DNA from: Pannonibacter phragmitetus DSM 14782
Lineage (GTDB): Bacteria; Pseudomonadota; Alphaproteobacteria; Rhizobiales; Stappiaceae
DNA: 64,000 bases
Assembly: GCF_000382365.1 (NCBI RefSeq)
Contig: NZ_KB908220.1
Location: 1-64,000 of the forward strand
Direction: 5' to 3'
Positions 50,376 through 54,768 of the stretch are shown here, piece after piece. Made by a program: the position numbers and the translations under genes. The notes below the pieces were generated by a model. That model searched no databases. It saw nothing but the letters and a program-made list of their open reading frames with translations, and had not been told where the DNA came from. The number at the start of each line of letters is the position of its first letter. The first letter of the stretch is position 1.

Positions 50376-50404
50376 GATGTACGGCGCGCCCGGACGGAAG
50401 TCAA
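50376..50404 (-). promoter_or_regulatory. Probable promoter of the tRNA-Asp pair
   Basis: On the minus strand TTGACT (50399-50404) and TACATC (50376-50381) are separated by 17 GC-rich bases. Transcription would begin about 40 bases before the first tRNA. Confidence 0.65.
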
Positions 50405-50657
50405 GCACCCCTGAACCGGCGAATGACCTGTTTTTCAAAAAAGGCAGAAAACCGCGTCTTTTGACCCGGCGCCATTGTGGATAAAACCAAGACAGCGATG
50501 CACGCGACAATCTGCACAAACTTACGCAGAAAAATGCAACCAAAAGAAAACATTTTCACTTGCCGCTATAAGTCTAAACACTCCACGTGAATGGGATATT
50601 TGTTAACGACCTTGCGGCATCTTAGCAGCACGCTCTCTATTTTTACCGGAGTTCATA
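50405..50657. other. AT-richer upstream region of the chemoreceptor gene
   Basis: About 250 bases without a gene, with A-rich stretches (for example around 50520-50560) unlike the GC-rich surroundings. It should contain the promoter of the chemoreceptor gene, but no clear -35/-10 pair stands out. A GGAG ribosome-binding site lies before the ATG at 50658. Confidence 0.5.
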
Positions 50658-52340
50658 ATGAAGATCCTGCCATCCTCGGTCTCGGGGAAGCTATATGGAC
50701 TGGTCGCGTTCTTTGCGGCTTGTTTCATTCTTGTCATTTCGTACCAGCTTTGGAACTTGCGGACGAATTTGATGCAGTTCAAGAGCTCCGAAGTTCGCAG
50801 TCTTGTAGATGCTGCAATTGGTATTGCAGACACATACAACCAGCTCGCCAAAAAAGGTGAGATGTCCATAGAGGAAGCGCAGGCTGAAGCTAAAACAGCC
50901 ATTCGCGGCATCAAGTTTGACGGCGACAATTATATCTTTGGCTACGATGAGAAAGGTATCCGCCTGATACATGCTCAGAAGCCGGATACGGAAGGCACGA
51001 ACCGTTGGGAAACTAAAGACTCTCAAGGTAAATATCACATTCGCGAGTTTATCGACGTAGCCACGAGAAGCGGTGGCGGCTATGTTGATTATTACTACGA
51101 AGCACCCACAGGCGGTCACTTCCCCAAAACTAGCTATGTTGGATACTACAAAGATTGGGGCTGGGTTCTTGGATCCGGCATTCTTTTTGATAACGTCAAT
51201 GCACTTTATTGGGACCAGGTCATCAAAAGTGTCAGTTTGACATTCATTCTTCTTGCCGCCGCACTCACGCTTAGCCTTTTCCTTGCAAAGTCAATAGCGA
51301 ACCCGCTGAGGCGCCTGAGTGCGCAGATGCTTCGTATCGCAGACAATCAACTGGACGAACCGGTTGAAGGAACGGATCGATCTGACGAAGTCGGAAGCAT
51401 GAGCCGCGCCGTTGAGGTCTTCCGCGAAAACGGTCTTACCCGCCAGAAGCTTGAGAGTCAGAGCGAAGCTGACCGTCTGCGCGAGCATCAGCGCCAGGAG
51501 GCGATTGCCCGCCTGATCGAGAGCTTCCAGATCGAATCGCAGCAGGCGCTTGGTGTCGTTGCCGAGAACACCGGCCGCCTGAACGAAGCCGCCATTGCCC
51601 TGAAACAGATCGCCACCCGCACCGAGGAGAGTTCCGGCAGCGCAGCGGCCGCCTCCGAACAGGCAACCGCCAACGTGCAGACCGTCGCCTCGGCGGCAGA
51701 GGAGCTCTCCGCCTCCATCGGCGAGATCAACCGCCAGGTCAGCCAGAGCAGCATTATCGTCGGCAAAGCCACCACCAGTGCCGCCCAGTCGAATCAGAAG
51801 GTCGCCAGCCTTGACGCTGCCGCACAGAAGATCGGCGAAGTCGTCAGCCTGATCCAGGCGATTGCCGAACAGACCAACCTGCTCGCGCTCAACGCAACGA
51901 TCGAGGCCGCCCGCGCCGGTGAGGCCGGCAAGGGCTTTGCTGTCGTCGCCGCCGAAGTGAAGGAACTGGCCAACCAGACCTCCAAGGCAACGGAAGAAAT
52001 CTCCTCGCAGATCTCTGCCATCCAGGCCTCGACCCGCGAGACCGTTGCCGTGATCGAAGAGATCACCGACATCATGGAAGAGGTGAATGGCTACACCGGC
52101 GCCATTGCCGGGGCCGTCGACGAGCAGGGCAAGGCAACGCGGGAAATCTCCGCCAACGTTCAGGAAGCTGCTCAGGGCACCCGTATGGCCACGGAAAACA
52201 TGCACCACGTCGCCGACGGGGCAACCCGCACCGCCCAGACGGCTGAAGGCGTGCTGCAGAACTCCACCCAGACCGCCCGCAGCACGGAAGACCTGCGCAA
52301 CCGCATCGAGACCTTCCTCAGGGCTGTGGCGGCTGCTTGA
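50658..52340 (+). CDS. Methyl-accepting chemotaxis protein with Cache sensor
   Basis: Transmembrane chemoreceptor of 560 residues. Helix 1 at 11-30, a periplasmic single Cache domain (about 35-185, with [14 protein letters not shown] and WGWVLGSGI), helix 2 at 191-212, HAMP at 212-264 and a methyl-accepting domain to the end, with the CheA/CheW-contacting tip in the [23 protein letters not shown] region. No C-terminal NWETF-type CheR tether is present. The ligand is unknown; single Cache domains often bind small organic acids. The DNA of the sensor half is visibly less GC-rich than that of the signalling half, with the change near codon 250-265. Followed by its own terminator. Confidence 0.95.
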
Positions 52341-52380
52341 CATCAGACCCGGCGGGCAGTCACCTGCCCTCCACAGACAG

Positions 52381-52409
52381 AAACCGGCGGATCGTTCCGC
52401 CGGTTTTTT
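52381..52409 (+). terminator. Intrinsic terminator of the chemoreceptor gene
   Basis: aaaccggcgga (52381-52391), loop tcgt, tccgccggttt (52396-52406), continuing as six T. Convergent with the GGDEF gene; the reverse strand has only a broken T run. Confidence 0.95.
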
Positions 52410-52445
52410 GCTGGGCAGATGCCCGCAGCAGCCCCTGACGGCCCC

Positions 52446-53753
52446 TCAGATGCCAGCAGCCGCCCCTGGCTGGAACACCGCAAACTGATTCTTGCCGTTC
52501 TTCTTGGCCGCATACATGGCGCAATCCGCTGCATGCAGAAGCAGATCGCTTTCGCAGCCGTCGGACGGGTAATGCGAAATCCCGATGGATGCGCTGACGC
52601 AGACAGCCTCCTTGCCGGTATCGATCGGACGGGCGATGTCCGTCAGCAGATGCTGGGCCAGCGCTCTCACCGCATCGACTCCGGACTGGGCGTCAACAAT
52701 CAGCGCGAATTCATCGCCGCCAAGACGAAAGCTGCCTGCGCTGGCACACAGGCTGATGCGGCGGCTCACTTCCTTGAGAACATCATCCCCGGCGCGGTGG
52801 CCATAGGTGTCATTGACGGCCTTGAAGCCATCAAGATCGATGATCAGCAGAAAGAACTCAGCCGCCTTCCCCTTGGGCTCCGTCCGGCCCGACAGCTCTG
52901 CATTGAAATGATAGCGGTTGCCCAGGCTGGTGATCTGGTCGAAATGGGCTGCGCGCCACAGGTCGAGCTGACTGTTATAGGCGTCCGTGATGTCCTGCAG
53001 AACGCCCTGAATCACCGGCTCCCCGAGATGGTTGACGCTGCCATGGCCCGCAATCTTGAAACGGCGGACCAGGCCTGACGGATGGCTGAACTCCACCTCA
53101 TGGGACACGGGCGCCAGGCTCGGCAGATCCGGCTGCGCCAGCATATCCTCGATCGTTCGGCGGACAGCGGGTGCAAAGGGCCGCAAAGCCGTTTCAAGAT
53201 CGATATCCGTGCCGCTGCTGATTCCGTAAAGTTCATAGGTCCGGCCGGACCAGAGCATCCGTCCCGTCCGGATCTCGTAGGTCCATGCTCCGATGCCTGA
53301 AAGAGCCTCAAGCTGGGCAAGCCAGGCGGCGCGCCGCTCGGCATCGCTCTTGAGGCTGAGCAGCTGATCTTCAAAGGAGCGCCGCTCCGGCGCCGGAAAG
53401 ACGGCCACATCGTAAAGCCGAGGCGAGATCCCGGTCCGGACCGTCATGTTGAGCAGAACGGGTGTGGACGAAGACGCTGCCTGCAGGCTGAGCGCGACTT
53501 CAGAACAGGCGCCTTCGATGTGCAGCAGCGGGGCCAGAATACTTTCGAAATAGATCTGGCCCGGCCTGCTCAGGAAGCTGCTGAGGCGCTTGCCCTCTGC
53601 TGCAGTTTCGTCAATTCCGGCAAGGCGGCAGAACAGCCTGTTGGCACGGGTCAACCGGAATGAGGCATCCGTGACCGCCAGCGCGCAAGGAGCATCATAC
53701 CATGCGTCAAGGAGCCCGGAGACGTCAGCTGAGGGGGATGGGAAGCCCGGCAT
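52446..53753 (-). CDS. PAS-PAS-GGDEF protein, probable diguanylate cyclase
   Basis: Soluble 435-residue protein predicted to make c-di-GMP. PAS 1 spans about 13-122 and contains PGQIYFESILAPLLHIEGA, a form I associate with PAS domains of stress phosphatases; a short coiled coil (123-148) leads to PAS 2 (149-258); the GGDEF domain (270-430) has NDTYGHRAGDDVL at 314-326 and an intact LGGDEF (344-349). The allosteric RxxD I-site that usually precedes GGDEF reads CASA (337-340), so product inhibition at that site should be absent. No EAL domain and no membrane helix. The ATG at 53753 has AGG upstream; the frame also opens at a TTG (53771). The start lies inside the upstream hydrolase gene, indicating coupling. 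Confidence 0.9.
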   Translation of the reverse strand: MPGFPSPSADVSGLLDAWYDAPCALAVTDASFRLTRANRLFCRLAGIDETAAEGKRLSSFLSRPGQIYFESILAPLLHIEGACSEVALSLQAASSSTPVLLNMTVRTGISPRLYDVAVFPAPERRSFEDQLLSLKSDAERRAAWLAQLEALSGIGAWTYEIRTGRMLWSGRTYELYGISSGTDIDLETALRPFAPAVRRTIEDMLAQPDLPSLAPVSHEVEFSHPSGLVRRFKIAGHGSVNHLGEPVIQGVLQDITDAYNSQLDLWRAAHFDQITSLGNRYHFNAELSGRTEPKGKAAEFFLLIIDLDGFKAVNDTYGHRAGDDVLKEVSRRISLCASAGSFRLGGDEFALIVDAQSGVDAVRALAQHLLTDIARPIDTGKEAVCVSASIGISHYPSDGCESDLLLHAADCAMYAAKKNGKNQFAVFQPGAAAGI

Positions 53754-54543
53754 AGCACCTGATCTCTTCAATGACTTCGGCAGGATGGCTCACATGCGGA
53801 CAATGGCCCGTAACCTTGAGTTCGACGAACTGCGCGTTGGGCATCTGTGCGGCAACATAGCGCCCGGCACTCTGCGGCGCGATAACATCTTCGGAGCACT
53901 GGATGACCAGAGCCGGTGTGGTGACGGACGCCAGATCGCTGCGGTTGTCACTCCAGAACGTCAGGGCTGCAAAATGCTGTGCGACATCGGGATCCGTCCG
54001 GCAGAAGCTTTCCTCCAGAACCGCCGTCAGTTCCGGGCGATCCGGATTGCCCATGATCAGCGGCGCAATCCCTTTCGTCCAGCCGAGATAGTTCGACCGC
54101 ATCGCCTCGATCAGGCCTTCAATGTCGGCAGCATTGAAGCCTCCCTGATACGCGCCATCATTCACATAGCACGGAGACGGACCGATCAGCACCAGCTGCC
54201 TGAACAGATCCGGCCGCTTCCCGGCCGCCAGAACGCCAATCATGGCGCTGACGGAATGGCCAACGAATATGACCGGCTCGGAACAGACATTCTCAATGAG
54301 CTCGATACAGTCATCCGCATAATCGGCAAGCGACTGATACCGCTCGTAGCTGAAGCAGCTGTGATCCGAATTGCCGAATCCGATCAGGTCAAACAGAATC
54401 ACCTGGCCGGACGCTTCAAAGGCGGGCGCCACATCCTTCCACATGGTCTGGTCACAGCCGAGGCCATGGGCAAAGACGATCGGCACACGCCCCCTGCCAC
54501 GCAGCGTCACCGCATATTTTCTTGAAACGTCCTGCACGCTCAT
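53725..54543 (-). CDS. RsbQ-like alpha/beta hydrolase
   Basis: A 272-residue cytoplasmic alpha/beta hydrolase strongly resembling Bacillus subtilis RsbQ as I remember that sequence: FAHGLGCDQTMWKDVAPAF near the N-terminus, LVLIGPSPCYVND in the middle and VTGHCPHVSHP near the end. The triad is Ser97 (GHSVS), Asp219 (CSEDVIAP) and His247 (GHCPH), the last two at the same numbers as in RsbQ. RsbQ is related to the plant receptors KAI2 and D14 and is required for RsbP, a PAS phosphatase, to sense energy stress. Here the gene overlaps a PAS-PAS-GGDEF gene by 29 bases. Start at 54543 is supported by GAGG 8 bases upstream; the frame to 54564 is less likely. Name withheld because function here is inferred. 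Confidence 0.9.
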   Translation of the reverse strand: MSVQDVSRKYAVTLRGRGRVPIVFAHGLGCDQTMWKDVAPAFEASGQVILFDLIGFGNSDHSCFSYERYQSLADYADDCIELIENVCSEPVIFVGHSVSAMIGVLAAGKRPDLFRQLVLIGPSPCYVNDGAYQGGFNAADIEGLIEAMRSNYLGWTKGIAPLIMGNPDRPELTAVLEESFCRTDPDVAQHFAALTFWSDNRSDLASVTTPALVIQCSEDVIAPQSAGRYVAAQMPNAQFVELKVTGHCPHVSHPAEVIEEIRCYAGLPIPLS

Positions 54544-54768
54544 ACAGCAATCCTCACAGCCCACACCCTGCAGTTTAAGGACTTGCGATTAGGCAGGAGT
54601 AAAAATTTATCCGCGAACTGCGCAATAACGATGATTACTTATAAAAAACAGAGACTTAAACTCTTGAAGCGAAGCCAAACCCGCTTCAAAGAAGCACGAA
54701 TCCGGGCAAATTCAGCCATGGCGTCAAAGTGAATTGACGCAAGATTCGTGGATATCGAGGAGATAAGA
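54544..54768. other. AT-rich gap between tRNA-Val and the hydrolase gene
   Basis: About 225 bases containing two weak hairpins: ttgaagcg/cgcttcaa (54664-54689) and gcgtcaa/ttgacgc (54721-54740). These may end the tRNA-Val transcript. The hydrolase promoter should lie here, but no good -35/-10 pair was recognised. Confidence 0.45.

Follow-up and report, generated by a model that had tools for sequence, protein, structure and literature searches.

Two overlapping genes of Pannonibacter phragmitetus DSM 14782, encoding an RsbQ-class alpha/beta hydrolase and a PAS1-PAS2-GGDEF protein, likely constitute a signalling module of the Q-PAS kind whose output is c-di-GMP. They lie in a 64,000-nt stretch of DNA that we call the window. 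The pairing, the catalytic triad, the class of PAS1, the intact cyclase motifs, the conservation of the pair and the repeated exchange of outputs are read from sequence; direct contact, the direction of the effect and the ligand are the parts of the mechanism that we infer. A preliminary description of the window had proposed that an RsbQ-type hydrolase would act through PAS1 on the cyclase, a reading for which the pairing, the phylogeny and the arrangement of domains give good support. The pair is real, conserved and probably functional, and represents one more case of a published module. The general hydrolase-PAS module with swapped outputs, presented in that description as novel, is not a new idea, since Nadezhdin, Brody and Price (2011; PMC3183031, accessible text) had already listed 45 RsbP-PAS proteins that adjoin RsbQ homologues and end in PPM, histidine kinase or diguanylate cyclase (GGDEF) outputs. 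A detail added here is the subclade-specific replacement of a near-invariant Thr-His in PAS1, which the earlier account had not detected.

Gene organization and genomic setting

Both genes are encoded on the minus strand (52446-54543), and their coordinates confirm the overlap claimed earlier. The hydrolase gene (53725..54543; 272 aa) starts with ATG at 54543, its stop codon ending at 53725, and is followed by the gene for the PAS1-PAS2-GGDEF protein, a predicted diguanylate cyclase of 435 aa (52446..53753), whose stop ends at 52446. The cyclase gene could start at ATG 53753 or at TTG 53771; the ATG is favoured because the resulting 29 nt shared by the two genes, in different reading frames, recur as the same overlap in the annotated Rhizobium rosettiformans pair and in the sequence of the congener G008. 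A perfect 11-bp inverted repeat with a T run (52381..52406), missing from the output of a pattern scan, lies between the cyclase gene and a convergent chemoreceptor gene (50658-52340, plus strand) and is likely to act as a terminator; the two-gene unit ends at this hairpin, which it shares with the chemoreceptor gene. A promoter scan returned 0 matches against 0.7 expected in shuffles.

The pair and the chemoreceptor gene occupy a stretch of about 4.4 kb from tRNA-Asp to tRNA-Val (50400..54768), the intergenic ends of which have 44-45% G+C versus 62% for the window. In the congeners G007, G009 and G010 the second tRNA-Asp and tRNA-Val lie only about 425-480 bp apart, and searches of that interval for the chemoreceptor gene or the pair gave no match beyond tiny chance pieces. 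A conjugative plasmid (p2) of R. rosettiformans carries a hydrolase of 71% identity together with the same type of cyclase partner, which makes gain of the stretch by transfer the simplest reading; loss in the other congeners is also possible. Annotation sets the plasmid pair (L111:1-10801) among further signalling genes, which encode a PAS protein, an HD-domain phosphohydrolase and a bifunctional cyclase/phosphodiesterase.

The fourth congener, G008, has a hydrolase gene split over two contig ends (L002:1-996 and L005:94-257): nucleotides 1-647 lie beside a transposase gene (PF01527) and nucleotides 656-819 on the other contig end. A single element presumably joins both ends, and the split may be recent. 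Its cyclase gene is an open reading frame, 93% identical to that of the window. The window chemoreceptor is mosaic when compared with L005:1643-3025 of the same congener: identity is 0.40-0.50 over residues 81-240 and 0.90-1.00 from residue 281, a pattern suggestive of a swapped sensor half.

An RsbQ-class hydrolase

The top PDB sequence match of the window hydrolase is Bacillus subtilis RsbQ (1wom; E 3e-83, 46% identity), which is also its nearest solved relative by fold (AlphaFold2 pLDDT 95, TM 0.95). Ser97, Asp219 and His247, noted earlier together with the likeness to RsbQ, are present as a catalytic triad in register with RsbQ in the alignment with 1wom. On the tree the protein is placed in the RsbQ class, outside the KAI2-like group. 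Identity as a KAI2/D14 protein was considered and ruled out, with KAI2 matching at E 2e-54 versus E 3e-83 for RsbQ.

Domain architecture of the cyclase

PAS1 (residues about 11-121; 53391..53723, minus strand) is the most N-terminal domain of the cyclase and is RsbP-PAS-like by profile matches and the AlphaFold2 model, in which pLDDT is 92-98 in ten-residue blocks from residue 21 to 120. As in the RsbP-PAS of the published module, its end lacks a DIT motif; it runs into FPAPERRSFEDQLL, the DIT being confined to PAS2. The linker that follows (residues 121-155; 53289..53393, minus strand) is predicted from AlphaFold2 secondary structure as a 35-residue helix, along which pLDDT drops from 76-85 to 53-71. 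PAS2 (residues about 156-258; 52980..53288, minus strand) is a tentative assignment that ends in a PAS-type motif (QDIT at 253, DIT at 254); a Pfam scan of the window cyclase gave no PAS match at this place, where AlphaFold2 confidence is low, and the corresponding place carries PAS_3 in the homologue L092 (E 1e-5) and, marginally, in L111 (0.088). The PAS-PAS-GGDEF architecture described earlier thus stands, with high confidence for PAS1 and less for PAS2, which rests on homologues and the DIT motif. Because the whole-chain model has a pTM of 0.42 and PAS2 is of low confidence, fold matches were used for the GGDEF part and set aside elsewhere.

The GGDEF domain (residues 269-423; 52485..52949, minus strand; Pfam E 5e-37) retains an intact GGDEF motif at residue 345, as had been stated, and its DLDGFK metal/substrate motif at 306 is intact as well. 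The protein thereby carries the motifs of an active diguanylate cyclase, and cyclase activity is predicted. A sequence check found no RxxD inhibitory site in the window cyclase, G008, L111, L091, L092 or L017; at the same place L003 reads RTGD, by eye. There are 28 GGDEF matches in the window's genome.

Conservation of the pairing and distribution of outputs

Species genomes were scanned with an alignment that includes the window hydrolase, RsbQ and L003, giving at least 588 relatives, of which the best 80 were kept, a set biased toward query-like loci. An RsbP-PAS-like domain lies directly downstream of the hydrolase in 76 of these 80 RsbQ-class loci (best 80 of at least 588). As a control, the same PAS profile was run against the 3780 six-frame ORFs of the 80 loci (stop to stop, 90 codons or more), which yielded 76 strong RsbP-PAS matches, one in each of 76 loci, plus five weaker ones. 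The profile had been built from such matches, window and L003 included; a phmmer search that used only the PAS1 domains of the window and L003 as queries recovered 75 downstream ORFs in the fetched loci. The association of RsbQ homologues with neighbouring PAS genes is thus conserved outside this strain. In one locus, L049, the PAS domain is split across two frames. No RsbP-PAS match was obtained in L010, L037, L041 and L050 (4/80). The gene after the hydrolase in the two Pontibacter loci (L037:5905-7299, L041:5896-7293) encodes a protein of 464-465 aa with no Pfam match, and the hydrolase at L050:6058-6777, in a locus with no PAS match, has a LuxR-type response regulator encoded 263 bp after it.

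The reverse test, in which plasmids were searched with PAS1-PAS2, placed an RsbQ-type gene just upstream in seven of seven records. The absence of the stretch from three of four congeners shows that the genes form no core operon, and to that extent would fit hydrolase and cyclase being chance neighbours with no functional link. Chance pairing is nevertheless all but disproved, because the pair is conserved in 76/80 loci, with one strong match per locus, and in the 7/7 reverse matches, so that we regard it as extremely improbable.

By similarity, the 76 partners (L010-L089) comprise 53 kinase-like and 21 phosphatase-like proteins, a single GGDEF protein (L017) and one cut by a contig end; Pfam assigned HATPase_c to 54, SpoIIE to 19 and GGDEF to 3 of 78 partners, window and L003 included. 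GGDEF is accordingly a minority output, and histidine kinases or PPM phosphatases predominate. Hydrolase matches occurred in 21 of 297 genomes of the window's order (E 1e-50) and 8 of 385 of its class (E 1e-60), two draws that share genomes, and in 3 of 87 genomes of its family, the window's own included (E 1e-30).

Phylogeny and output exchange

In a tree of 117 hydrolases, built by a quick method with SH-aLRT support only, the window hydrolase groups with those of R. rosettiformans p2 and genome G362 (support 100), and these three join L092, L017 and L093 (support 94); all six have GGDEF partners, L017 and L093 being identical. A PAS-GGDEF partner is also present in L003, which comes from a different genus in the window's family, but its hydrolase sits with a kinase-type one (99), apart from the window group, and GGDEF output therefore arose at least twice in the class. 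For all four labels together the tree requires 10 changes versus 31.9 in shuffles. In 68 kinase-type pairs, hydrolase distance tracks PAS1 (r 0.79) more closely than it tracks the output part (r 0.57); for 21 phosphatase-type pairs the values, 0.74 and 0.67, do not clearly differ, the subsample range of the difference being -0.05 to 0.27. Because the output parts differ in architecture, this distance test is supportive rather than decisive. The G362 homologue (L091:2255-3799) has an EAL domain after GGDEF, cut by the locus end, and the window subclade thus includes a likely cyclase/phosphodiesterase hybrid.

A changed contact position in the window subclade

The accessible text of PMC3183031 gives nine characteristic RsbP-PAS residues as a 75% consensus and reports that B. 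subtilis RsbP F55A and Y59A are null, with weaker RsbQ contact in two-hybrid tests; the Y59A protein level was 50-60% of wild type, and this lower level possibly contributed to the null phenotype. RsbP numbering was carried over from that text by motif spacing, and not by alignment with RsbP, because the search for a solved RsbP-PAS reference matched the PAS1 profile only to 3bwl, and in part. On this numbering, most characteristic positions are kept or conservatively replaced in window PAS1 (C10, L48, Q53 (as in B. subtilis), F55->Tyr, C56->Phe, P62, E72, P86), and two deviate (L13->Ala, Y59->Ile).

The Tyr59 position corresponds, by motif spacing, to Ile72 of the window cyclase (codon 53538..53540, minus strand). 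Among 91 other PAS1 domains, all from kinase- or phosphatase-type modules save one with its output cut off, it is His in 88 and the preceding residue is Thr in 90; L049, L108 and, as a copy of L017, L093 were left out of this count. Other GGDEF members have His (L092, L017) or Tyr (L003). All four members of the window subclade (window, G008, R. rosettiformans and G362) instead have Ser followed by Ile or Val at this place in F-alpha. Their hydrolases also differ at near-constant sites, including F28->L/M and E175->V/T, in three related sequences in which co-adaptation and descent are inseparable. Since the Tyr59 position is needed for B. subtilis signalling, the F-alpha contact may have been rebuilt or lost in the subclade; as the PAS1 contact face differs there from the norm, the binding mode has probably been adjusted.

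Loss would mean that PAS1 has drifted out of contact, the cyclase using PAS1 and/or PAS2 to sense a ligand of its own while the co-transcribed hydrolase does a separate job. The replacement of Thr-His by Ser-Ile/Val in 4/4 subclade members and the persistence of the G008 cyclase without an intact hydrolase speak for such drift, which we nonetheless judge unlikely: the window, R. rosettiformans and G362, with hydrolases 67-72% identical, all retain both the pair and its overlap, the remaining PAS1 class positions are kept, and the G008 split could be of recent date. A missing contact residue beside an intact triad would also suit a hydrolase that makes or removes a small molecule sensed by PAS1 via diffusion, without protein contact, but RsbQ touches RsbP-PAS in B. 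subtilis two-hybrid and pull-down experiments (PMC3183031, accessible text), and we give this reading little credence. The points that count against the favoured module, in which the hydrolase signals through contact with PAS1, are Ile/Val at position 59, where Y59A is null, together with Ala at L13; the lack of a clear distance difference in the phosphatase-type pairs; a G008 cyclase that is open despite the split hydrolase; and PAS2, which could dominate the input.

Proposed mechanism

The hydrolase would bind, and probably slowly hydrolyse, some small molecule in its Ser-His-Asp pocket. It would contact PAS1 and then either hand over a product or alter the contact when occupied, and the change would be relayed to the GGDEF dimer by way of the linker helix and then PAS2, altering c-di-GMP synthesis. 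The earlier wording, that the hydrolase delivers or makes a ligand for PAS1, corresponds to Model 1 only of PMC3183031, product delivered by the hydrolase; Model 2 of that text, in which hydrolase occupancy is the signal and the hydrolase the sensor, stands on an equal footing here. According to the same text, contact of RsbQ with RsbP-PAS in B. subtilis was seen by two-hybrid and pull-down, triad and PAS contact are both required for signalling, further PAS domains occur in 5/45 module proteins, a coiled-coil linker of at least 21 residues is found in 36/45, the exceptions including extra-PAS proteins, and the cue of the module was called mysterious in 2011. A 2025 eLife article (PMC12143880), in the part available, refers to the module and its GGDEF outputs and presents a 2RsbP/2RsbQ model made with AlphaFold2.

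A module wired to c-di-GMP offers a direct biochemical read-out, cyclase activity with versus without the hydrolase, and the sister genome with a split hydrolase gene is a natural comparison. If the changed contact is a rebuilt interface, the window subclade shows how such modules are re-tuned; otherwise it is an ordinary case. For a specialist, the points of interest are the altered position in the contact helix, the cyclase as a convenient read-out and a KAI2-like side family.

A KAI2-like side family

Four more distant alphaproteobacterial hydrolases (L108, L109, L132, L133) lie directly upstream of proteins with another N-terminal domain; L132 and L138 are the same place, as are L133 and L137, and the L108 pair lies at L108:1483-3662. 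A similar hydrolase occurs on a Novosphingobium plasmid (L147:3992-5421), its partner being cut by the record end and likened by eye. For the L108-type domain, Pfam gave no family at E up to 1 when the domain was searched by itself in L108, L109 and L132, and the first 165 residues of L133 had no Pfam match; the resemblance of the domain to GAF is by eye only. It is followed by PAS-GGDEF in L108, L109 and L133 and by PAS-kinase in L132. Six genomes were searched for this domain, which was found once each, beside the hydrolase, in G130, G635 and G135, and not in G605, G034 and G362.

The L108 hydrolase matches plant KAI2 (6atx) at E 1e-81 versus 3e-53 for RsbQ. The hydrolases of L108, L109, L133 and L147 form one group (99) outside the RsbQ class. 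The grouping of these four with plant KAI2 and L148 is tentative (83), and the L132 hydrolase sits on a long branch at another place in the wider group. Some hydrolases of that wider group stand without an obvious partner, judged from annotation for L149 and L150 and from ORF lists alone for L139-L141, and in L148 an annotated sensor-domain cyclase lies 290 bp downstream of the hydrolase.

Bacteria might pair hydrolases with sensors as a general design that draws on several partner domains, the RsbQ class using RsbP-PAS (the window contact rebuilt, perhaps for another ligand) and KAI2-like proteins the other N-terminal domain, with c-di-GMP reached independently by both; we advance this tentatively and with more doubt than confidence. 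If true, the KAI2-like alphaproteobacterial clade would represent the bacterial equivalent of KAI2/D14 signalling in plants. A search for papers treating KAI2 and diguanylate together, with preprints and most subscription papers outside its range, found none.

Comparison with known systems

The window pair shares with B. subtilis RsbQ-RsbP the hydrolase fold, the triad, the PAS1 class, the adjacency of the genes and their order, and differs in output: B. subtilis uses a PPM phosphatase for sigma-B, whereas PAS1 of the window is followed by PAS2 and GGDEF. Plant KAI2 and D14 are hydrolases that work as receptors via a partner protein, and the window hydrolase resembles them in hydrolase fold and triad. 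The published RsbQ-PAS module, as far as the accessible text of PMC3183031 describes it, agrees with the window in having an RsbQ homologue directly upstream, RsbP-PAS as the most N-terminal domain and GGDEF among its three outputs; it differs from the window subclade at position 59 of F-alpha, His/Tyr versus Ile/Val. In the RsbT-type control of Moorella thermoacetica (PMC12143880, part available), a sigma-B-type partner is likewise reused on a GGDEF protein, although the partner protein and the input domain are different from those of the window.
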